A stretch of DNA of 64,000 nt from Caldifarciminota bacterium (GTDB lineage: Bacteria; Hydrothermota; Tepidihabitantia; Tepidihabitantales; Tepidihabitantaceae). This document shows positions 1 through 62,638 of the stretch, in pieces (position 1 is the stretch's first letter; each line of letters begins with the position of its first letter). The position numbers and the translations under genes were made by a program. Under the pieces are notes generated by a model. The model saw nothing but the letters and a program-made list of their open reading frames with translations. It did no database searches and had not been told where the DNA came from. The stretch spans positions 1 to 64,000 of the forward strand of contig JAOABP010000001.1 of the NCBI GenBank assembly GCA_026418295.1, written 5' to 3'.

Positions 1-31
1 TCATCGTCCAGTAAGCGACTGCGAACGGATT

Positions 32-44244: not shown

Positions 44245-47200
44245 ATGACGGGGTTTGATGGGCAGGAGAATATCAATGTTCTGCGGCAGCTCAACGAGCG
44301 CTATGAACCGTTAGAGCTGCTTGGAAAGAGTGAATTTAATGAGGTTTATAAAGTCAAGGACCGGCTGGGACGCCGGATTATTGCGTTAAAGGTTCTGCAG
44401 AAAAATGCGTCTCGAGAATCGGGACTGCGACTAAGTCGGGAATTTTTTTATCTTTCCCAGCTGGCGCATCCCAATATCGTCCGAGTGTTTGATTACGGCC
44501 TGACGATCGACAACTCCCCATTTTTCACCATGGAATTTGTTCCCGGGGTACCGATCACCCGTTTTTTCCGGGGTTACCAGCCGGCGCTGCTTGAGGTTCT
44601 GATTCAGCTGCTCTCTGCACTTGATGCAATTCATCGTGAAGGGCTGGTTCACTGTGATATTAAGCCCAATAATATTCTTGTTTTTGACAATGAAGGCAAA
44701 CCGGTAGTGAAACTGCTGGATCTGGGATTTATTGAAGATGTATCTTTTTCTTCTTCGCCCTCTCCTCGGGGCACGCTGGGCTACATTGCTCCGGAGCTGC
44801 TCAAGGGCGGAGAGGTGGACAGCCGGACCGATCTCTATTCTCTGGGGCTGGTTTTATATGAGGTACTGACCGGGATCGGACCGGCAAGCGGGGGTTCGCT
44901 GGAGGAATGGCTGAGACGGCAGTATTATTCCGGTTTTGAACCGGTTAGCAAATTCAACCCCGCAGTTCCGGCAGCGCTGGATAATCTGGTGCTGCGTCTG
45001 CTCAACCCGGATCCCAGGCGGCGGCCGGCAAATGCGGAGCGGGTGCTGGAAGAGTTTGTATCCGCAGGCCTGATTGTGCCAGAGTCACCCCGAATGCAGA
45101 CTGGTGTTGAGCCTTCAGTAATAAGGCGGGACTTGCTGGTACCGGCCTTTGTTGGCAGAGCTCCGCTGATTGCGCGTCTGAAGGAGCTGCTGGGAGAGGC
45201 TGCTGCCGGTAAACCCAGGGTAGTTTTTATTTCCGGGGAACGGGGTGCGGGCAAAAGCCGAATTTTGGGAGAGTTCAAGTTCCTTGCCCAGCTGGAGCAG
45301 GCAACGGTTATCGCTTTTGAACCGGTGGCACTGGGTGCCCGATCCCAGTCGCTGGTTGAAAGCCTGATTAACCTTCTCTGGCGAGGGGAGGAGGTAGAAA
45401 CAGATATTAGCCTGGAGTTTTTCCAGGAGTCCAAGTTTCAGCTGTTTGAACGGCTGGTCCGGCGATTGAGGGCGCTAGCCGATTCCCATCGGGTGCCCCA
45501 CAGTCTGGTACTGCTGGTAGATGATTTTGAACTCTTTGATCCGCTGAGTCTGGAGTTTGTGCGTTATCTGGCATTGAGCCTGGAACAGGAAAGACTGCTT
45601 CTGGTGATCACCGGACTAAGAGAAAAGCGGCTGCTGGATCTGGTCGGCGAACTGAGCGAAAGACCGTATTGTTATCACCTGGATGTGGATACTCTGGATC
45701 GCGAGGCGGTTCATGAGCTGGTAAGTTCAGTCGTAAGTGACGACGATAAAGTTGATGAGCTGGTTAACTGGGTTTATGAATTCGCTGGCGGTAATCCACT
45801 GGCAACGATCGAAGTGATTTACAGTATGATTGAGCAGGGGGTGATTTTCCGTGAGGGGCTGCACTGGCGGTATTCACCGGAGTCTTTAAGGAATTTTCCG
45901 ATTCCCAAGAATGTAGCGGATCTGGTGCGACACCGGCTTGAGGTGCTGACACCGGAAGAAAGGGAACTGCTGGAGGTTGGGGCAGTAACCGCAGGTCCGT
46001 TTACGATTGAATTTCTCCGGGCGGTGCTCAATTATCCGGACCGGACACTGTTTCAGGCGGTCAATCGGCTGAAGGGGCTCGGATTGCTCAGGACATTTTA
46101 TTCACGGGACAATGAGTCAGAAGAGGTTCGCGGAGCGCTGATTCTTTCCAGCAAAGTGCTTGAGACTGCGGTTACCGAGCGGATTCCACAGGAGCGCCGC
46201 CGGGAACTGCACCGCCGGGTGGCACTGGCACTGGAGCTGGTGCATACAGATAAAAAGGATAAAATTCTTTTTGACCTTGCGCATCAGTGGATTCAGAGCG
46301 GTGATCGCGAGCAGGCATATCGGTACGCCCTCGCAGCCGGTAAGAAGGCGCAGGAGTGGCTGCTGTTTGATGAAGCACGGCTTTTCTATGAAAGTGCGCT
46401 GAATCTTGCTTCCGATTTTGTCACTCCCGCTGAACGGTTTAATCTGATTGAGCGGGTCGGTGAACTCCGCGAGGCAACCGGCAGATATCACGAAGCGATT
46501 GACAGTTACCGGCAGGGAATGAGTCTGGCAGCCCAGTTTGCCGGTGAAAATCGTATGATTCTTGCCCGCTTTCTGCGCCGGCTCGGACTCGTGCATCAGA
46601 AACTGGGGGAACATCAGGAGGCGCTGCTCTTTTTAAATCAGGCGCTGGCACTTCTGGGAGAAAAGTCCGGTTTGGAATCGGCGCGGCTGCTTGCAGATCT
46701 GGGCTGGTCATATTGTGCTGCAGGCAAGGTGGAGCTGGCTGAGGATTATCTCGTCCGGGCGCTGCGGCAGTCAGAGCAGTTAAAACGGGAACATCCCAAG
46801 GAGGCTAATTACCTGAACGGCCTTGTGCTTTACTACTTTGCGGTGCTCGCCGGTGCAAGATCGGATTACATGCTGGCACTGCAGCTGGCAGAGCAGGCGC
46901 TGGATGTTTTCAAATCAGTTGATGAGCAGTTCATGGTTTCGGTCGTGATACAGTTTCTGGCAACGCTCTGTCTGCGCCGTGGTGATGCGCGTCGGGCAGG
47001 GGAATTCTACGAGGAGGCGGCACGGATTCAGCACCGGACCGGTAATGTATATTACCTGCTTAGCTCCAGTCATGGTTTGGGGGTGATCAGTTATGAGCAG
47101 GGAGAATTTGAGGGAGCGGAGCGGCATTTTAGTGAAGCGCTGCAGTACGCTGAACGTGTCAAAGATGCGGGTGCCGCCTTTAATCTCAATCTCCTGCTGG

Positions 47201-49482
47201 CTAATGTTTATTTTGACCAGGGGGAGTGGAGCCGGGCTGAGGTTTGCTGTCAGCGTGCGCTCAAACTCAGTCAGACAGCGGGAGATGGGGTTTCCGAACC
47301 GGGCCGGGCACAGCTGGCGGTCTATTCAGCCCGCCTCAGCTCAATCCGGGGTGACTTCCAGTCTGCTGAGCGGTATCTCGCCACAGCCCAGCGTTTAGCT
47401 GAAAATTCCCAAGACCCGGAACTTGAGTTTTTATTTTCCTATGTTCGCACAGAAATGGAGTTGCGCCGGGAAAGACTGGAGCTGAGCAAGGAATGGCTGA
47501 TCCGGACTATGCGGTCAGCATTGAAAGTGCGGGATTGGAGGCTCCGGTCGCTCGTGTGGCTGCTTGCCGGACAGTTCCGGCTGTCAACAGGTTCCCGGGC
47601 CGATTTTGAATCTCAGCAGGCGATTGCTGCTTTTCGAAGCCGTCCGGTATCACTGGAGTATGCTGGGGCACTCCGCCTGGCGGCACGGTGCGATGCCGCT
47701 GCCGGCAGAAAGGATCGGTCGCGCACGCAGTTTGAGGAAAGTATTAAAATCTTCCGGCAGTTCAATGCCAAGTATGAACTCGGACTTACGCTGCTCGCAA
47801 CTGCGGAACTGCTCTGCACTGATACCCTGTCCCTGCCGAAAAAGTTAAGAGGAATGCCGGCTGAACATTATGAATGGGTCCGAGCGAATCTGGAGGAGGC
47901 AATTTCCCTTTTCCGGCTGCTCGGGGCTCAGATTGAGCTTGAGCGCGCTGAGCAGACTCTGGCTTCGCTCGAGCAGATTTTCGGCGTGATCCAGCTGAAA
48001 GCGCGGCAGCGTAATGAGTATTTGAAGGTTTTCTATCAGTTAAGCGAACTGATGAATTCAGCTCTGGATCGGGATGATTTTCTTGACCTGGTACTGGAAC
48101 TGGTGCTTTCTGTGACCCGGGCAGAGCGGGGGATTATATTTTTCTTCCATCGGGACCGGCTGTCGCCGGTAGCGGTGCGGGATGTAGAAAATTCAACAGT
48201 TCTGGATGCCGAGGCAATTTCCCATTCAGTGCTGCGCAAGGTGCGGCGCCGCCGGGAGCCGCTGATCAGTGTTGACGCGCTGACTGATCCGCGGTTCAAT
48301 TCGGCAAACAGCGTTATTCTGAATAAAATCCGGTCCCTGCTCTGTGTACCGCTGGTAGTAGGCGAGCGGGTAATCGGCACGATTTACCTTGATTCCCGGT
48401 TGACTACACATCTTTTCACTGAGGAGGATCAGAATCTTCTCCAGTCAGTCGGGCATTTGATTGCCGCTACCATTGAACGTTCGCGGGTATATCGGCGATG
48501 GTATCAGGAGACAGTGCTTACCTACGATGACCTGCCGGTGGACCGGGCAACCGGTATTTTTCTTGGCAGATCGCCTGCCATCCGTCCGGTTCTCACTTTG
48601 ATCGATAAGATTGCTCCAACCGATTGCACTGTGCTGATTACTGGCGAAACCGGAACCGGAAAGGGGGCGCTGGCGCGGCTGATTCATTCCCGCAGTGGCA
48701 GAAAGGATAATAAATTTGTTGCGGTTGACTGCGGAACTCTGCCTGAGACACTGTTTGAGTCCGAGCTCTTTGGTCATATCCGGGGTGCATTTACCGGTGC
48801 GGTGCGGGACAAGATCGGCATCTTTGAGTCTGCCAATGGGGGCACAATATTTCTGGACGAAATTACTAATACTACGCCGGCAATTCAGGCAAAACTGCTG
48901 CAGGTGCTGGAGGATAAAATTATCCGCCGGCTCGGTGAAACGCAGACCCGGCTTGTTGACGTCCGGCTGATCTGTGCAACGAACAAAAATCTGATTAATG
49001 AGGTGAATGCCGGAAGATTCCGCCAGGACCTGTTTTACCGGATGAATGTGGTGACGATAAACGTGCCGCCACTCCGGGAAAGGGTTCAGGATATTATTCC
49101 ACTGGCAAATTATTTTCTGCGGATCTGTGCACAGCGGCTTAACAAGGAGATTAACGGATTTGAGCGGGATGTTGTCGAGGCATTTCTGCAATATTCTTGG
49201 CCCGGAAATGTCCGGGAACTTCAGAATACAATTGAGCGTGCAGTAATTATGACTCAGAACCTGCGGATAACGCTTGAAGATGTGGGGGAGACTTTCATCC
49301 ATCTTAAGTCCTCAGAGAACAGTGCACGGAGCGGACCGCTGACCAGGCACCAGCTGCTTCAGGCACTGGAACAGACTGGTGGAAATATCACGCGTGCTGC
49401 CCAGCTGCTTTGTATCACCAGACGGCACGCGCAGCGGTTGATCAAACGTTACCGGATTAAGCCCGAAGAGTTCGGGATCTAG
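44245..49482 (+). CDS. Ser/Thr kinase - AAA ATPase - TPR - GAF - sigma-54 activator - HTH protein
   Basis: 1745 residues, with domains in this order. (1) Protein kinase (~10-275): G-loop LLGKSEFNEVYKV (degenerate), Lys48 in IIALKVL, HCDIKPNNI near 136, DLG and APE near 181, so it is probably active. (2) AAA_16-type ATPase (~300-680): Walker A GERGAGKS near 330, Walker B LVLLVDDFE. (3) TPR superhelix (~700-1230). (4) GAF (~1272-1415). (5) Sigma-54 interaction AAA+ (~1438-1670): GETGTGKG, GAFTGA near 1514, GGTIFLDEI, arginine-finger region. (6) Fis-type helix-turn-helix (~1700-1745). It has everything needed to activate sigma-54 promoters, and one lies just downstream at 49639. Confidence 0.93.
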   Translation: MTGFDGQENINVLRQLNERYEPLELLGKSEFNEVYKVKDRLGRRIIALKVLQKNASRESGLRLSREFFYLSQLAHPNIVRVFDYGLTIDNSPFFTMEFVPGVPITRFFRGYQPALLEVLIQLLSALDAIHREGLVHCDIKPNNILVFDNEGKPVVKLLDLGFIEDVSFSSSPSPRGTLGYIAPELLKGGEVDSRTDLYSLGLVLYEVLTGIGPASGGSLEEWLRRQYYSGFEPVSKFNPAVPAALDNLVLRLLNPDPRRRPANAERVLEEFVSAGLIVPESPRMQTGVEPSVIRRDLLVPAFVGRAPLIARLKELLGEAAAGKPRVVFISGERGAGKSRILGEFKFLAQLEQATVIAFEPVALGARSQSLVESLINLLWRGEEVETDISLEFFQESKFQLFERLVRRLRALADSHRVPHSLVLLVDDFELFDPLSLEFVRYLALSLEQERLLLVITGLREKRLLDLVGELSERPYCYHLDVDTLDREAVHELVSSVVSDDDKVDELVNWVYEFAGGNPLATIEVIYSMIEQGVIFREGLHWRYSPESLRNFPIPKNVADLVRHRLEVLTPEERELLEVGAVTAGPFTIEFLRAVLNYPDRTLFQAVNRLKGLGLLRTFYSRDNESEEVRGALILSSKVLETAVTERIPQERRRELHRRVALALELVHTDKKDKILFDLAHQWIQSGDREQAYRYALAAGKKAQEWLLFDEARLFYESALNLASDFVTPAERFNLIERVGELREATGRYHEAIDSYRQGMSLAAQFAGENRMILARFLRRLGLVHQKLGEHQEALLFLNQALALLGEKSGLESARLLADLGWSYCAAGKVELAEDYLVRALRQSEQLKREHPKEANYLNGLVLYYFAVLAGARSDYMLALQLAEQALDVFKSVDEQFMVSVVIQFLATLCLRRGDARRAGEFYEEAARIQHRTGNVYYLLSSSHGLGVISYEQGEFEGAERHFSEALQYAERVKDAGAAFNLNLLLANVYFDQGEWSRAEVCCQRALKLSQTAGDGVSEPGRAQLAVYSARLSSIRGDFQSAERYLATAQRLAENSQDPELEFLFSYVRTEMELRRERLELSKEWLIRTMRSALKVRDWRLRSLVWLLAGQFRLSTGSRADFESQQAIAAFRSRPVSLEYAGALRLAARCDAAAGRKDRSRTQFEESIKIFRQFNAKYELGLTLLATAELLCTDTLSLPKKLRGMPAEHYEWVRANLEEAISLFRLLGAQIELERAEQTLASLEQIFGVIQLKARQRNEYLKVFYQLSELMNSALDRDDFLDLVLELVLSVTRAERGIIFFFHRDRLSPVAVRDVENSTVLDAEAISHSVLRKVRRRREPLISVDALTDPRFNSANSVILNKIRSLLCVPLVVGERVIGTIYLDSRLTTHLFTEEDQNLLQSVGHLIAATIERSRVYRRWYQETVLTYDDLPVDRATGIFLGRSPAIRPVLTLIDKIAPTDCTVLITGETGTGKGALARLIHSRSGRKDNKFVAVDCGTLPETLFESELFGHIRGAFTGAVRDKIGIFESANGGTIFLDEITNTTPAIQAKLLQVLEDKIIRRLGETQTRLVDVRLICATNKNLINEVNAGRFRQDLFYRMNVVTINVPPLRERVQDIIPLANYFLRICAQRLNKEINGFERDVVEAFLQYSWPGNVRELQNTIERAVIMTQNLRITLEDVGETFIHLKSSENSARSGPLTRHQLLQALEQTGGNITRAAQLLCITRRHAQRLIKRYRIKPEEFGI

Positions 49483-55694: not shown

Positions 55695-58637
55695 TTAATG
55701 ACTGGAGCTGCGGGGTCCGATAATGGTTACGGTATTGGAGTTGTAATTGGCGATATACACTTTGCTGTCCCAGGAGTTGATGCAGATGGCGATCGGATTA
55801 CTGCCAACAGTGATTGTCTTCTGAACAGCATTAGTGGCTCCATCAATCAGTGAGACACTGGCACCATCGTAATTGACGGCAAACAGTTTGTCAACCCAGC
55901 CTGCCCACCCGAGAGTGCGGGGGTGAATACCGACTGAGATGTCAGTCATGAGTGAATAGTTGCTAACATTGATGACCGAGACATTATTGCTACCGGAGTT
56001 GGCACAGTAAAGCCGGTTATCAGTGGCATTGAAAGCAAGGGCGTAGGGTTCACTGCCGACATCCAGAGTGGTAATGACTGACTGATTTTCGCCGTTGATA
56101 ATGGTTACCTTTCCGAAATAGCGATTGGCAACTGCTACATTGTTTCTACTGTCGACCACCAGTGCGCAAGGCTGGTAATCCACCGGTACCGTCCCGAGTA
56201 CACTGTTAGTAGTGCCGTCAATTACTGTTACATTATTACGGGCAAAATTGGCGCAGTAAATTTTGTTGTACGCCGGGTTGTAAACCAGTGCGATCGGATT
56301 TGAATCCACCGGTACTGTGGTGATAACTTCGCTGGTATTACCGTCAATTACAGTTACAGTTGCCGAGCGGTAGTTGCTGACATAGAGCCGGTTATCGTGC
56401 GGGTTGAAGCACATTGCCTGCGGATAGCTGCCGACACTGACCGTAGTCTGAACCTGATTGCTGGCACCGTCAATTACCGTCACAGTACCGCTGATCTGAT
56501 TGGCAACATAAACCCGGCCGTTTAATGTGTTAAGACACAGGGTGTAAGGGAATCCGCCGACCCGGATCGTGGTCTGAATCTGATTTGTGCTGCCATCGAT
56601 GACGGTTACACTGGAATCGTTGTAATTGGCAACAAATACCTTGTTGTGCAGGCTGTCCCAGAGCAGTGCTCGGGGTTTTGCACCAACGGTAATTGTCGTA
56701 AGGACTGTATCCGGTGTTCCTCCTGCACCTGTGACCGTGAATATACCGCTCCGACCCTCGGTCATATGGTTTCCACACCAGGCACGGACTGCAATCTGGG
56801 CATTTGCAGTGGGTGGACTGGGAACGGTCCAGGTGTAGCTGCCTGCCTGAGTTGTTACTCCCTGGCGGTTCCAGCTTGTCCCACCATCGGTGGAGTAATA
56901 AATTACAGTCGACTCCATACCGGCAAAGGTGCCGCCGGTCCAGGTAATTTCGTGCGTTGTGCCTACGATCCAGCGTGCGCCGGCGGCTGGGGAGGTAACA
57001 GTGATCGGTGATGGCGGCAGGGAGTCGTAGATAACATAACGGGCGCTGATTGCAACGGTAGATTCGCCGGCAACATGGGCACGGACCGCTACCCGGGCGA
57101 GATCGGTAGCAGGGCCGGGGACATTCCAAGTGTAACTGCCAGGAGTGGTTGCCCGGCCATGTCTCGTCCAGGTACCGCCATCGTTGGTGGAGTAGAATAC
57201 CACAACCGAATCCGGGGTTGACGGTCCACCAGTCCAGAGAATGGACTGGGTTGAACCTTCACGCCAGCGGGTGGCGGAATTTGGCTGAGTGATGGTAATC
57301 GGCGGCAGCCCTTCAACAATCTTGAAAGTAGCGCTGTAGCCGGTAGTGGATGAGTCAAGGCAGAATGCCCGTACCCGGATTTTTGCCTGCTGAGTGGCAG
57401 GTTGTGGTACAGTCCAGCGGTAGCTGCCGGGTCGGGTAGTAGCACCGATCCGCTGCCAGGTTGTTCCATTATTGGTGGAATAGGAAAGGACCGTTGAGTC
57501 CATGCCTAAAAGAGTGCCGCCAGTCCAGATGATGTCATAACTGTTGCCGATGCGCCATTCCGCAGTCGAATCAGGAGAGGTTACGGTAATGGGCGAGGGT
57601 TTGTTCCGGTCGTATACTTCATAGCGGGGTGAATTGCCAAGGGAGGTGTCACCAGAGATAAACATCCGCACTTGAACGCGGGCGTTAGTGCTGGGCGGAC
57701 TGGGTACAGTCCAGGTATAGCTGCCGGCCTGGGTTGCCCGACCATGTCGCAACCAGGTTGTGCCGCCATTGGTGGAGTAGTAGATAATCGTGGAGTCAGC
57801 ACCTGATATGTTTAAATTATTCAGCCGGTGTGCAGTTTTTCCCGATCCCTTGCTGTCCAAAACCGTCGGTCCGCCTGTCCAGCGGATAGTCTGCTGGGAG
57901 GTAACACGCCAACGGGTGGTATCATTAGGCTGAATTACAACAATTGGCGGGAAGGTGCGGAATTGCCAGATCGGACCGCTGACAGTGGCGCCGCGCTGGT
58001 CGCGGGCGACAATTCGCCAGTAATAGGTGGAATCATATTTCAGCCGGGGTGTGGTGTAACTGGTCTGATTGTGATTCTGTACCAGCAGCGGTGGCGGAGT
58101 AGTTGTTCCCAAATAAATGTCATAAAATACCGTATCACCAGGATCCGGGTCGCCGCCGGACCAGGATAATGTGAGACGGACGAACTGCCCGATTGCACCG
58201 GAATCAGGTGTCGGACTTGAGGGAATAAACGGGAAGTTGTTTGCTTTTGCGGTTGAGAAGCGCCAGACCGGACTGGAAGCGGTTTCTCCGAACCGGTCGC
58301 GGGCGACAACACGCCAGTAATAGGTCGCCAGGACATTGAGGTTCAGGGGATGGTAGAAGGTGTCGCTGATACCGGAATCGAAAAGTGGGGGTGGCGGGCT
58401 GATACCCAGATAAAGCAGATATTTCAGGGTGTCCAGGCTGTCCGGATCAGTACAGGTCCAGCGCAGAACCACATTGGTATCAATATCCCGGGCAGCACTG
58501 TCGGGAAACAGCAGTTGAGGCGGAGAGGGGGGGCGGTTGGCAGCTGGGTCATAGGGATTAGTCCACTTTCGGCAGACGAGCAAGGAGAAGGCTAAAAGCA
58601 GGCTGAATTTTAAGAACCAAAAGTATTTTTTTACCAT
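55695..58637 (-). CDS. Surface lipoprotein with Ig-like and YVTN propeller repeats
   Basis: 980 residues, lipobox SLLVC (Cys22) followed by RKWTNPYDPAANRPPSPP. Two fibronectin-like domains (~35-225, YYWRVVARDRFGET / YYWRIVARDQRGAT) are followed by four or five Kre9-like Ser/Thr-rich repeats (~230-640, pattern ITVTSP...W..GT.H.I.WTGG...M.STV..YSTNGGTTW...G....GSYTWTVPSP) and seven ~42-residue YVTN propeller repeats (VFVANYNDSSVTVIDGSTNQIQTTI..G). Probably outer-membrane-anchored and surface-exposed. Start ATG 58637 overlaps the PEGA stop. Confidence 0.85.
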   Translation of the reverse strand: MVKKYFWFLKFSLLLAFSLLVCRKWTNPYDPAANRPPSPPQLLFPDSAARDIDTNVVLRWTCTDPDSLDTLKYLLYLGISPPPPLFDSGISDTFYHPLNLNVLATYYWRVVARDRFGETASSPVWRFSTAKANNFPFIPSSPTPDSGAIGQFVRLTLSWSGGDPDPGDTVFYDIYLGTTTPPPLLVQNHNQTSYTTPRLKYDSTYYWRIVARDQRGATVSGPIWQFRTFPPIVVIQPNDTTRWRVTSQQTIRWTGGPTVLDSKGSGKTAHRLNNLNISGADSTIIYYSTNGGTTWLRHGRATQAGSYTWTVPSPPSTNARVQVRMFISGDTSLGNSPRYEVYDRNKPSPITVTSPDSTAEWRIGNSYDIIWTGGTLLGMDSTVLSYSTNNGTTWQRIGATTRPGSYRWTVPQPATQQAKIRVRAFCLDSSTTGYSATFKIVEGLPPITITQPNSATRWREGSTQSILWTGGPSTPDSVVVFYSTNDGGTWTRHGRATTPGSYTWNVPGPATDLARVAVRAHVAGESTVAISARYVIYDSLPPSPITVTSPAAGARWIVGTTHEITWTGGTFAGMESTVIYYSTDGGTSWNRQGVTTQAGSYTWTVPSPPTANAQIAVRAWCGNHMTEGRSGIFTVTGAGGTPDTVLTTITVGAKPRALLWDSLHNKVFVANYNDSSVTVIDGSTNQIQTTIRVGGFPYTLCLNTLNGRVYVANQISGTVTVIDGASNQVQTTVSVGSYPQAMCFNPHDNRLYVSNYRSATVTVIDGNTSEVITTVPVDSNPIALVYNPAYNKIYCANFARNNVTVIDGTTNSVLGTVPVDYQPCALVVDSRNNVAVANRYFGKVTIINGENQSVITTLDVGSEPYALAFNATDNRLYCANSGSNNVSVINVSNYSLMTDISVGIHPRTLGWAGWVDKLFAVNYDGASVSLIDGATNAVQKTITVGSNPIAICINSWDSKVYIANYNSNTVTIIGPRSSSH

Positions 58638-59650
58638 CGGATTATAAAGTAAAGTCCGATACACCCAGCACCGGCACCAAACCCGATGTTACGGAGCATA
58701 TCCCAGCGTTCGGTTTCCTGACGGAGCCGGATCGCCTCCTGTGTACTTGTTGCCTGCTGATAAGCGGCGTAGCTTTTTTCGCCCATCAGCGCTGATAGGG
58801 CACCGCCGGCACTAAGCACAATCCCGGTTAAAAGTATGGGCAGCTGGCGTTGAGGGAGGCGGGAAAGAGTCTGATTGACCGCTGTTGTTTCACCATAGCC
58901 GATGTTGACATACCCGAGCCAGTCTTCATAGCCGGGTTTGGAGAGAGTGAGTGCATACCGGTCCGGTGCGAGTGCGGTTACAAGCGGTGCAGTGCCCAGT
59001 TTTCTGCCATTGGCAATAACATCAGCTCCTGACGGTCGGGTGGTGACGCTGAGAAATCCCCGGCTGGTGCCAAGTTTGATCAGAATGCCAATGGGTCCGG
59101 ACTCCCGGACTTCCACCAGTTTTGTCGCTTCCTGATAGCCGGTGAGCCGGGCAGAGATGGAGTGGGAGCCAAAGGGGACGCGGGAAATGGTCAAGCCGGT
59201 TTCGGTAGTTTTTCCTTTGTAAACACCGTCGAGGTAAATGTCGGCACCTGTTGGATCCGAGGTGACTACGAGCGTTGCCAGCCGGGCGGTAATATTGAAA
59301 CTGGAATAATAAGTCTGGTAACCGGCAAGCCGCACTTCCATTTCATGCCTGCCGGGCGCGAGTTCAGTTATGGTGAGTGGTGTTTTTCCTCGTTCAATAT
59401 CGTCGATCCGGACCGTGGCGCCAGATGGTTCGGAGGTGATGATTACAGAGTTGCCTTCAACCGAAGCAGTAACCCGGAGCCGGGGAAGGGACGGACGGCT
59501 TTCCGGTTCGGGTAGACGGGCACCGCATTTTTTACAGAAACGGGCATCATCCCGGTTGGCGGTCCCGCAGTTCGGGCAGATCTTCTCTGCCCACGCGACA
59601 GTAATCACCAGCAGGATGCAGAGCAGTACTTTCACTACTTTTCTGTCCAT
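58631..59650 (-). CDS. Exported zinc-ribbon and PEGA-domain protein
   Basis: 339 residues. Signal peptide MDRKVVKVLLCILLVITVAWA, then a zinc ribbon CPNCGTANRDDARFCKKCGARLPE, three PEGA repeats (~65-270, each with SEPSGA-type turn and PG...V.L.GY), a membrane helix near 280 and a short tail. PEGA domains are surface-binding modules often beside kinases. Operon with the upstream kinase-like gene (6-base gap) and the lipoprotein downstream. Overlaps that gene by 7 bases. Confidence 0.83.
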   Translation of the reverse strand: MDRKVVKVLLCILLVITVAWAEKICPNCGTANRDDARFCKKCGARLPEPESRPSLPRLRVTASVEGNSVIITSEPSGATVRIDDIERGKTPLTITELAPGRHEMEVRLAGYQTYYSSFNITARLATLVVTSDPTGADIYLDGVYKGKTTETGLTISRVPFGSHSISARLTGYQEATKLVEVRESGPIGILIKLGTSRGFLSVTTRPSGADVIANGRKLGTAPLVTALAPDRYALTLSKPGYEDWLGYVNIGYGETTAVNQTLSRLPQRQLPILLTGIVLSAGGALSALMGEKSYAAYQQATSTQEAIRLRQETERWDMLRNIGFGAGAGCIGLYFIIRW

Positions 59651-59656
59651 GATCTC

Positions 59657-60925
59657 CTACTCCGGGAAGCGGTAGCCGCAGCGGGTACAGAATTGAGCAC
59701 TTGGTTCCCGGCGCGCACCACACTGCGGACAGGTGGCTCTGCCGGCAGCAATTCTGAGGCGGACAGGTGTTTTTGCCCGGACCTTCGTGCCTGATTTCGG
59801 TTCCACGCCGATAACCCGGCCGATTTCAACTTCATCGCTGTACTCACTTGCGATAATTATACTATCCAGCCCGGAGGTACGCAACAGTTTCTCAGCATCG
59901 GCACGGTTCAGTCCGGTGAGTGAGGGGATTTCAATCATACCGGTACTCAGTCGGATTTGGACCACTGTGCCCTTTCGTACTCTGGAACCGGGCTTCGGGT
60001 TCTGCTCGGCAACAAGACCCATTGGCAGGGGCCCATCCTTGTCCGGTCCCAGTGCGAAGCGTAAGCCGGCTGACTCGAGGTTTTCCCGGGCGTCTGCCTG
60101 GGTCTGACCAATAACCTCTGGAACAGAAATTTTTCCGCCACTACTTAAGATGAAGAAAAGTACTGCACCAGCGGCAATCACGAGGATAAGAGAGATGATG
60201 GGCACAGGAATTTTGCCTTTTTCTTTATGAACAGTATGTACAGGTTGTGTTTGGGCTGCTATCGGTGCTGGACGCGGTGGCGCCATCGGTCTGGGCGATG
60301 CAGTGCGCTCGGGCTGTGAAGCAGACGGACTCTGAGGTGATAATCTGGTTTTCACCGGGCCTGCGGTTTCGGGAGCAGACGCAGGGGGCGGAGGTGCCGG
60401 ACGTTCAGCCTCTCTGGGCGCTAAAGCGTTAAGTGCGTTTCGAAATTCACGGGCTGACTGGAACCGGCGTGCAGGGTCTTTTTCCAGAGCCCGGAGAATG
60501 ATTTTTTCCAAGTCCGGTGGCAGATCCGGTTTAACTGAACTGGGCGGCGGTGGAGTTTGACTGATGTGAGCCTGAATCAGTTCTGCGCCCAGTTCGGCGT
60601 CAAACGGCGGCCTGCCGGTAGCAGCCTCATAAAGCACGACGCCAAGAGAATAGAGATCGGAACGGGCGTCCACCGACTGTTTCTGTGCCTTTTCCGGGGA
60701 AATGTAGCGGGCGGTGCCAATTTTTGATACCCCGTAGTCAATCAACCGCCATACGCGTTCTTCCACCTGGACGATTTTTTTCGGTTTGATATCTCCATGG
60801 AGATGCCCCTGGCTGTGCGCCTTCTCCAGATCTTCCAGTACCGAACTGAACAGAGGAATCAGTTCTCCAAGCGGCAGAACCCGACGCTGAGCAAGCAGAT
60901 CAGCCAGTGTCAGCGCCCGCGCCAT
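59657..60925 (-). CDS. PASTA kinase lacking the N-lobe, probably a pseudokinase
   Basis: 422 residues. The kinase part (1-170) starts at the C-lobe: no glycine loop, no VAIK lysine, no alpha-C Glu. The catalytic loop reads HGDIKPKKI (the metal-binding Asn is Lys), with DYG and SPE later. A Pro/Ala-rich linker (~170-240), a membrane helix (PVPIISLILVIAAGAVLFFIL), two PASTA domains (VPEVIGQTQADARENLESAGL; IPSLTGLNRADAEKLLRTSGL) and a zinc ribbon CPQCGARREPSAQFCTRCGYRF follow. The ATG is 6 bases after a -10 box, so the short form is genuine. Confidence 0.85.
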   Translation of the reverse strand: MARALTLADLLAQRRVLPLGELIPLFSSVLEDLEKAHSQGHLHGDIKPKKIVQVEERVWRLIDYGVSKIGTARYISPEKAQKQSVDARSDLYSLGVVLYEAATGRPPFDAELGAELIQAHISQTPPPPSSVKPDLPPDLEKIILRALEKDPARRFQSAREFRNALNALAPREAERPAPPPPASAPETAGPVKTRLSPQSPSASQPERTASPRPMAPPRPAPIAAQTQPVHTVHKEKGKIPVPIISLILVIAAGAVLFFILSSGGKISVPEVIGQTQADARENLESAGLRFALGPDKDGPLPMGLVAEQNPKPGSRVRKGTVVQIRLSTGMIEIPSLTGLNRADAEKLLRTSGLDSIIIASEYSDEVEIGRVIGVEPKSGTKVRAKTPVRLRIAAGRATCPQCGARREPSAQFCTRCGYRFPE

Positions 60926-60931
60926 GGTTTA

Positions 60932-60959
60932 ATCATATCATAACATCAGGCGGCGTCAA
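60932..60959 (-). promoter_or_regulatory. Promoter of the kinase-PEGA-lipoprotein operon
   Basis: Minus strand: TTGACG (60959-60954), 16 bases, TATGAT (60937-60932), then 6 bases to the ATG at 60925. Leaderless layout. Confidence 0.78.
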
Positions 60960-60970
60960 CAGTTAGCGTT

Positions 60971-62638
60971 TCAGTGCAGTGTTCCGGATGGAGTGGAGGA
61001 TTCACGAATGATCCGCTGGCGGGCAAGCGGGGCATATAATGAAGTCGGGTATTCCTGAATCAGCTGTTCGGCGATACGCTGCGCCCGAGCAGTATCATTA
61101 AGCCCAGTCTGAAAAATCTCCAGCTGCCGGAACAGGGCTGCCGGTGCCAATTCACCTTTGGGGAAAATTTTTATCAGCGTATCAAGTACTGCAATTGCAG
61201 ATTGATACTGGTGCTGGCGGGAAAAAATTTCGCTGGTGATGATCAGCGTCTGCTGGACTGTAAGTTCATCTCCTGACCGGAGCCGGGCTGCCTGCCGGTA
61301 TGCCTCCTGGTAGTTCCCGGTCTCAAGTGTGAACATAATCGCTGCCAGCTCCTTTTTGGAACTGCTCAGGGTCAGGATGTTCAGTTCCAGCAAATCGTTA
61401 AAGAGTGGGCTGTCGCCATACCGCCGGCTGAACTCTTCAATTGCGAGTGCGAGTGAATCGAACTTCTCCTGATAGAGCAGAATTTTAGTTCGGAGAAAAA
61501 GGACGCGATCATCAGGCGGATCAAGCTGTTCGAGAAAATTACGGGCGCTGTCCAGCTGACCGCTGCCGATGAATGCAGCCACCAGACCGAGCCGGGCGTT
61601 CCGGTCATTCGGACGTAGGCGGAGCAGGCGACGGTAAACTGCGGCGGCGGTCCTGAAGTCGTTTTTCTCCTGACGCAACAGTTCGGCATATTCAAACAGC
61701 CCGTCCGGGGTGGTGTCCGACTGGAGCAGTTTGAGTGCAATTTCAGTTTTGCCCTGAAACCGGAGCGTACGGGCGGCATCTGCCCGCCAGCCAAGCTGCT
61801 GGTAGATAATGAGTGCCGTCTGATCCCGGCCAGCCTGTTCCCATTCGCGGGCCAGCTGATGCAGATCGGTTCTGTTTAGAATCCCGGCCTGATGTGCGTT
61901 CAGCAGTTCTCGGGCGGCATCGTTTTCTCGGTCGGCACCCAGAAGTAGCTGTGTCCGGGCACGAACGCGCAGCACCGGGCTGCGGATTTTGTCCAGTTCT
62001 GCCAGCAGATTCTGACGACCGGCTTTTCTGCCCCAGGTGCGCAGTCGATCAATGTTCTGGAGAAGATAACGGGCGATATCCGACTGCAGGCTGGTGTCGG
62101 TGTTGGCAAGCTGAACGATCAGATTGGCTGCAGCATTGAACCTGCCCATTTGTTCGTAGAGGGTGAGCAACCGGTCGATAAGCTGGGGATTGAACCGGGT
62201 TGTCACCTGTGGCTCAAGATAACGGGTGGCAAGTGCGTATTCGTGAACGCGAGTTAAGAGATCAGCTGCAGCCATCACCCGGTCGGGTGCCGAACGCAGA
62301 AGCCGTTCGAGCCGGCTGATGGCTTCAGAGCGGCGCCGGAGTCCGAACAGGGCTTCGATGATCCCCAGTTCAATATCCGGTTGATTGCGGGCAACCGGTT
62401 TTAATCTTTCGAGCACAACCAGCAGGGTATCAAATTTCTTCAGGCTGACGCCGGTGCGGACCAGCCCGGCAATTGCCGGTCCTTGTTCCGGGTTTTTCTC
62501 CAGTGCCTGCAGATAGAGCTTAAATGCGGTTTCAATCTGGCCTGCCTGTTCCAGCTGCTGGGCTTGAAAAAGCTCCTGTCCTGCAACTGTGCTTAATGAT
62601 ATTGGCAAAAGTAACAGGATCCGGATAAGTGTATTCAT
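60971..62638 (-). CDS. Exported TPR protein
   Basis: 555 residues with a signal peptide (MNTLIRILLLLPISLSTVAG-QE). Tandem TPR-like helical repeats fill the protein (for example QAGQIETAFKLYLQALEKNPEQGPAIAGLVR near 30-60, and KNDFRTAAAVYRRLLRLRPNDRNARLGLVAAFIGSG near 345). The C-terminal NDTARAQRIAEQLIQEYPTSLYAPLARQRI is BamD/YbgF-like. A periplasmic scaffold role is likely, partner unknown. Its ATG overlaps the upstream gene by four bases. Confidence 0.83.
   Translation of the reverse strand: MNTLIRILLLLPISLSTVAGQELFQAQQLEQAGQIETAFKLYLQALEKNPEQGPAIAGLVRTGVSLKKFDTLLVVLERLKPVARNQPDIELGIIEALFGLRRRSEAISRLERLLRSAPDRVMAAADLLTRVHEYALATRYLEPQVTTRFNPQLIDRLLTLYEQMGRFNAAANLIVQLANTDTSLQSDIARYLLQNIDRLRTWGRKAGRQNLLAELDKIRSPVLRVRARTQLLLGADRENDAARELLNAHQAGILNRTDLHQLAREWEQAGRDQTALIIYQQLGWRADAARTLRFQGKTEIALKLLQSDTTPDGLFEYAELLRQEKNDFRTAAAVYRRLLRLRPNDRNARLGLVAAFIGSGQLDSARNFLEQLDPPDDRVLFLRTKILLYQEKFDSLALAIEEFSRRYGDSPLFNDLLELNILTLSSSKKELAAIMFTLETGNYQEAYRQAARLRSGDELTVQQTLIITSEIFSRQHQYQSAIAVLDTLIKIFPKGELAPAALFRQLEIFQTGLNDTARAQRIAEQLIQEYPTSLYAPLARQRIIRESSTPSGTLH

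Follow-up and report, generated by a model that had tools for sequence, protein, structure and literature searches.

An N-lobe-less PASTA pseudokinase, probably a membrane scaffold, encoded beside a PEGA protein in WOR-3 bacteria

Pseudokinases normally adopt bilobal folds with a decayed ATP site, and eukaryotic PAN3 has both kinase lobes. For bacteria, the accessible part of one source describes seven pseudokinase families, ActPs1-3, GLW, CP1, DYD and DLHK (PMC12599244). The membrane pseudokinase YukC/EssB is presented, in the accessible parts of the papers on it, as an interaction hub without ATP binding (PMC9600267; PMC13037476) that binds the FHA domain of its partner YukB (PMC9600267). 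Pan3_PK of Pfam is called a pseudokinase family without the kinase N-lobe in one line of the accessible text of a further paper, a remark that concerns the coverage of the fold by the Pfam model (PMC10870513). A search of largely open-access literature for N-lobe-less or truncated (pseudo)kinases and for PASTA pseudokinases retrieved, at the level of the titles and abstract openings listed, no bacterial family without an N-lobe.

Here we describe such a protein, encoded in the first 64,000 nucleotides (the window) of contig JAOABP010000001.1 from a Caldifarciminota bacterium (GCA_026418295.1; genome G000). The features of the locus are as follows.

59657..60925 (-): N-lobe-less PASTA pseudokinase ORF, 422 aa, ATG start
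60422..60925 (-): kinase C-lobe alone, residues 1-168 (Pfam, phmmer, AlphaFold model and residue counts)
60206..60421 (-): Pro/Ala-rich linker, residues 169-240, low confidence (pLDDT mostly <50)
60143..60205 (-): single transmembrane helix, residues 241-261
59942..60127 (-): PASTA domain 1
59750..59935 (-): PASTA domain 2
59675..59731 (-): zinc ribbon at the C-terminus; its four Cys are invariant in 14/14 orthologues
60932..60959 (-): promoter-like element TTGACG-16-TATGAT, ending 6 nt upstream of the ATG
58631..59650 (-): partner gene; signal peptide (by eye), zinc ribbon, three PEGA domains and a C-terminal helical hairpin
55695..58664 (-): downstream gene for a probable lipoprotein with a YNCE-like beta-propeller
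60971..62638 (-): upstream TPR protein, often syntenic, present also where the pseudokinase is absent
44245..49482 (+): complete kinase, a kinase-AAA-TPR-GAF-sigma54 activator of 1745 aa, the only complete kinase detected in the genome

The domain order of the pseudokinase, from N- to C-terminus, is C-lobe, disordered Pro-rich linker, one transmembrane helix, two PASTA domains (both matched by Pfam) and zinc ribbon, and Lys and Arg are commoner before the helix than after it, a topology signal that places the N-terminus inside. A preliminary description of this DNA held that the protein begins at the C-lobe, and every comparison agreed. The Pfam Pkinase match covers only model positions 84-253 of 263, beginning at protein residue 6; the phmmer alignment begins at PknB residue 101; and residue 1 of the AlphaFold model corresponds to PknB residue 94, about the hinge, with structural alignment up to PknB 278. 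The same description was right that the start is not misannotated. The in-frame codons upstream of the ATG are ACC, TAA, GAT, TAT and TGA, so that stops at codons -2 and -5 leave no longer start possible, and the position of the promoter-like element predicts a transcript start that is near leaderless. The truncation is thus firm. The shortened activation loop, single transmembrane helix, C-terminal zinc ribbon and PEGA partner gene had gone unmentioned.

Residues 1-168 contain the start of alphaD, the catalytic loop HGDIKPKKI, in which Lys replaces the catalytic Asn as previously claimed, and DYG, with the APE motif and later C-lobe helices retained. The activation loop is reduced to four residues (VSKI) between DYG and GTARYISPE, and 15 activation-segment residues of PknB are absent by phmmer. 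In the AlphaFold model the C-lobe is predicted to be self-standing, with pLDDT >90 in 15 of 17 ten-residue blocks, and it superposes on Mycobacterium tuberculosis PknB with a Z score of 28.4 and an rmsd of 1.2 Å over 164 residues (37% identity). The kinase part also dominated the matches of a fold search with the whole model.

To place these changes, residues were compared between 14 family members, 65 kinases from a named collection and 37 other kinases. The catalytic Asn occurred in 1/14 family members versus 65/65 and 32/37 kinases, and the DFG Asp in 8/14 versus 65/65 and 37/37. Tyr replaces the DFG Phe in 13 of the 14, the HRD Arg is kept in three, and all 14 have lost the activation loop. 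In the G005 orthologue (L078:6119-7351) the activation segment has grown again by six residues (GAVKYVSTVRY), in what resembles a small tandem duplication. The HRD Asp, DFG Gly, GT..Y, APE Glu, and the Asp and Arg of what we take to be helices alphaF and alphaI were kept in 14/14, and the DxK Lys in 11/14. Judged by these residues, the family retains the fold and has lost most of the catalytic chemistry, and the pseudokinase is very probably unable to phosphorylate anything alone.

We further investigated the occurrence of the pseudokinase in 100 related genomes, 18 of which belong to the same family (f1, WOR-3). Full-length orthologues with the identical truncation were found in 14 of the 18, the other 13 sharing 38-92% identity with the 422-aa protein, and in all 14 the first residues belong to alphaD or to a short leader of unrelated sequence. 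The truncation is shared by all 14, but Lys is not constant: the catalytic Asn site is K in eight, R in four, H in one and N in one, and we rejected the idea that Lys itself is a meaningful change. A fifteenth genome (G010) has the 3' end only, in frame at a contig edge and adjoining its PEGA gene. In G014 and G017 no full-length copy of either gene was detected, and the TPR gene is followed by unrelated genes; absence from G002 is not proven, as its TPR gene runs off the contig. The pseudokinases were monophyletic with a support of 1.0 in a tree of 116 C-lobes. In a wider profile search of 65 class genomes and 147 phylum genomes (in the phylum search, up to 11 candidates scored per genome, cut-off E 1e-30), full-length matches came from family f1 only, among the matches listed. 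Of 172 relatives in the named collection, 80 were kept; eight of these loci were N-lobe-less (by title, seven from candidate division WOR-3 and one from an uncultured bacterium), 71 had an open frame of at least 91 aa before the point of alignment (to judge by their titles, most are PASTA kinases of Coriobacteriia) and one (L108) was cut by a contig end. A 248-aa frame in another family (L028:1501-2106; G040:C54:2859-3464) matches the transmembrane, PASTA and zinc-ribbon part (query 212-418) and has no kinase lobe.

Conservation was also apparent in the promoter-like element and in rates of evolution. The motif TTGACN-16..18-TAnnnT occurred within 90 nt upstream of 11/14 orthologues versus 225/28,000 background stretches, the three without it (G005, G015 and G016) all belonging to one genus, g4. 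The C-lobe is under purifying selection, with dN/dS values (NG86) in three genome pairs of 0.092 (G000/G001), 0.042 (G003/G009) and 0.028 (G003/G013, dS saturated); for the linker, computable in two pairs, they were 0.287 (G000/G001) and 0.244 (G003/G009).

The neighbours of the pseudokinase are DUF4175-like, TPR, PEGA and beta-propeller genes. Most consistently, the PEGA gene lies directly downstream in 13/13 testable genomes; in G011 the contig ends after the pseudokinase and a PEGA fragment is on another contig. Linkage to the TPR gene is not universal, since the two are on different contigs in G012, G006 and G011, with other genes after TPR in G012 and G011. The DUF4175-like and TPR pair (62635 onward and 60971-62638) is present without the pseudokinase/PEGA pair in G014, G017 and G018 (other family). 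Both zinc ribbons, that of the pseudokinase and that of the PEGA protein, were visible in 13 genomes, six of which were used for a shuffle comparison; in 6/6 the two ribbons scored 56-93 against each other versus maxima of 38-51 from 500 shuffles. Zinc ribbons are more usually cytoplasmic, and those of the 58631-59650 and 59657-60925 products appear to be extracytoplasmic, an unusual location that counts against the scaffold reading given below. Among 47 other genomes of the class, 21 had kinase and PEGA matches common to one contig and frame length (by eye), and four such proteins checked with Pfam each contained a complete Pkinase and PEGA. Such fusion in relatives suggests, indirectly, that the kinase and PEGA parts work together. 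Complete kinases and PEGA repeats on one chain were seen in other WOR-3 families at L184:277-2379, L188:307-2400, L182:469-2406 and L186:802-2688.

From these data we infer the function of the pseudokinase, which probably acts as a relay or scaffold. It seems rather probable that this conserved single-lobe PASTA pseudokinase spans the membrane as a scaffold without catalytic activity and acts together with its PEGA partner. The C-lobe would serve alone in the cytoplasm as a docking domain for a cytoplasmic partner, linked by the one transmembrane helix to the PASTA domains outside, which presumably bind cell-wall material, while the terminal zinc ribbon would dock on that of the co-encoded secreted PEGA protein. 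The state of the envelope or wall could then be relayed across the membrane through conformation or oligomerisation, without phosphorylation. The preliminary description had likewise proposed a sensor scaffold rather than a kinase, and this is supported by the truncation in 14/18 genomes, purifying selection, a fold kept while catalysis was lost, the linked PEGA gene, the similar ribbons and the lack of matches to FHA (0/5 genomes, controls positive 6/14) and PP2C_2 (0/5, controls positive 7/14). YukC/EssB offers a precedent that counts for a membrane scaffold. Transpeptidases were detected in 5/5 genomes, so that these bacteria probably make peptidoglycan, to which PASTA domains usually bind. 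More tentatively, and with confidence that stops a little short of even, the protein may be a half-kinase receptor in WOR-3 bacteria, sensing the wall through PASTA, signalling free of phosphorylation, with no FHA or PP2C detected, and joined to the PEGA protein by zinc ribbons; as part of that same reading, the complex would be the counterpart of the single-chain kinase-PEGA proteins of related families.

A decoy or regulator of complete kinases, whose C-lobe binds substrates or the giant 1745-aa kinase and competes with it, is unlikely. C-lobes bear the usual substrate and docking surfaces, and the giant kinase lies 10 kb away here and about 15 kb away on the same contig in G001, but the two are on different contigs in G003 and G009, and neither PASTA nor PEGA is among its Pfam matches. 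The genome search for a possible partner kinase, as previously suggested, gave this protein, the only other Pkinase match in the genome. Long kinase frames like it also occur in relatives.

We consider it improbable that the C-lobe sits passively in the cytoplasm as an anchor or stub, with the PASTA domains and zinc ribbon alone mattering. A kinase-free PASTA protein does occur in the same genome, but dN was lower in the C-lobe than in either PASTA domain in 3/3 pairs, which is evolution unlike that of a stub. The kinase-free protein (G000:C9:301661-302404; L001) is a 252-aa frame with three PASTA domains, found also in relatives.

It is very unlikely that this is a split kinase, activity being restored by an N-lobe supplied in trans by a separately encoded protein. 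Retention of the HRD Asp in all 14 members and of the DxK Lys in 11 speaks for it, and, being more than a pure scaffold needs, counts against a pure-scaffold reading. Against it stand the loss of Asn in 13/14 and of the DFG Asp in 6/14, the deleted activation loop, and the genomes themselves. An N-lobe profile built from 117 kinases (125 full kinases collected, eight without a VAxK-like motif dropped) recovered the window's complete 1745-aa kinase at 9.8e-26, and gave no match below E 4 in 15 pseudokinase neighbourhoods, in keeping with no orthologue having its N-lobe encoded just upstream. A second profile yielded 13 matches in nine whole genomes, each inside a complete kinase, and no orphan N-lobe, such a profile detecting homologous N-lobes only; the partial matches G010:C193 and G015:C109 were left out of the kinase survey. 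The frame is open for 151 codons upstream in G011 and 30 in G007, with no N-lobe in either by profile. A longer start or a split gene was rejected, given the in-frame stops and the 15 empty neighbourhoods.

Finally, although a domain is missing, a decaying pseudogene or an assembly or joining error is refuted by the same truncation in 14 separately assembled genomes, the conserved promoter-like element and purifying selection.

A conserved C-lobe-only family indicates that selection can act on this lobe alone, and provides a clean test of its role without catalysis or nucleotide-driven lobe motion. PASTA sensing architecture here is apparently uncoupled from phosphorylation. If the more tentative half-kinase reading is true, a free-standing kinase C-lobe would be a conserved functional module in its own right.

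PknB-type PASTA kinases are recognised by an N-lobe with a Gly-rich loop and the VAxK Lys, by HRDxKxxN, DFG and an activation loop, and by a single transmembrane helix followed by PASTA repeats; of these, the protein has the last, lacks the first and carries HGDIKPKKI, DYG and a four-residue loop. It fits the residue-based definition of a pseudokinase, namely kinase homology with loss of the beta3 Lys, HRD Asp or DFG Asp, the beta3 Lys being missing along with the entire N-lobe. The bilobal fold, with only the C-lobe modelled here, is the usual description and lies outside that definition. As none of the seven families is described as N-lobe-less in the accessible part of the source and the Pan3_PK remark concerns a model, we class it as a variant pseudokinase and not as a PASTA kinase.

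With the PASTA Ser/Thr kinases (PknB, PrkC, StkP and Stk1) it shares the C-lobe, single transmembrane helix and PASTA repeats, but it lacks the N-lobe, activation loop and catalytic Asn, has an additional C-terminal zinc ribbon, and comes from a family with no FHA or PP2C_2 match in five genomes. YukC/EssB of T7SSb resembles it, as described in the accessible text, in a cytoplasmic dead kinase domain, one transmembrane helix, an extracellular domain and a reduced activation loop; however, the YukC pseudokinase domain (residues 3-206) spans the ATP-pocket region and is described there without PASTA or zinc ribbon (PMC9600267; PMC12599244), so the likeness is one of architecture and description, not shown kinship. 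The seven families likewise comprise dead Hanks-type domains in bacteria, none described in the accessible part of the source as N-lobe-less or as a PASTA pseudokinase, a comparison made by description (PMC12599244). A likeness in partnership is to the kinase-PEGA proteins of other WOR-3 families, in which kinase and PEGA domains also belong together; there a complete kinase and PEGA form one chain, whereas here half a kinase and PEGA are carried on two.
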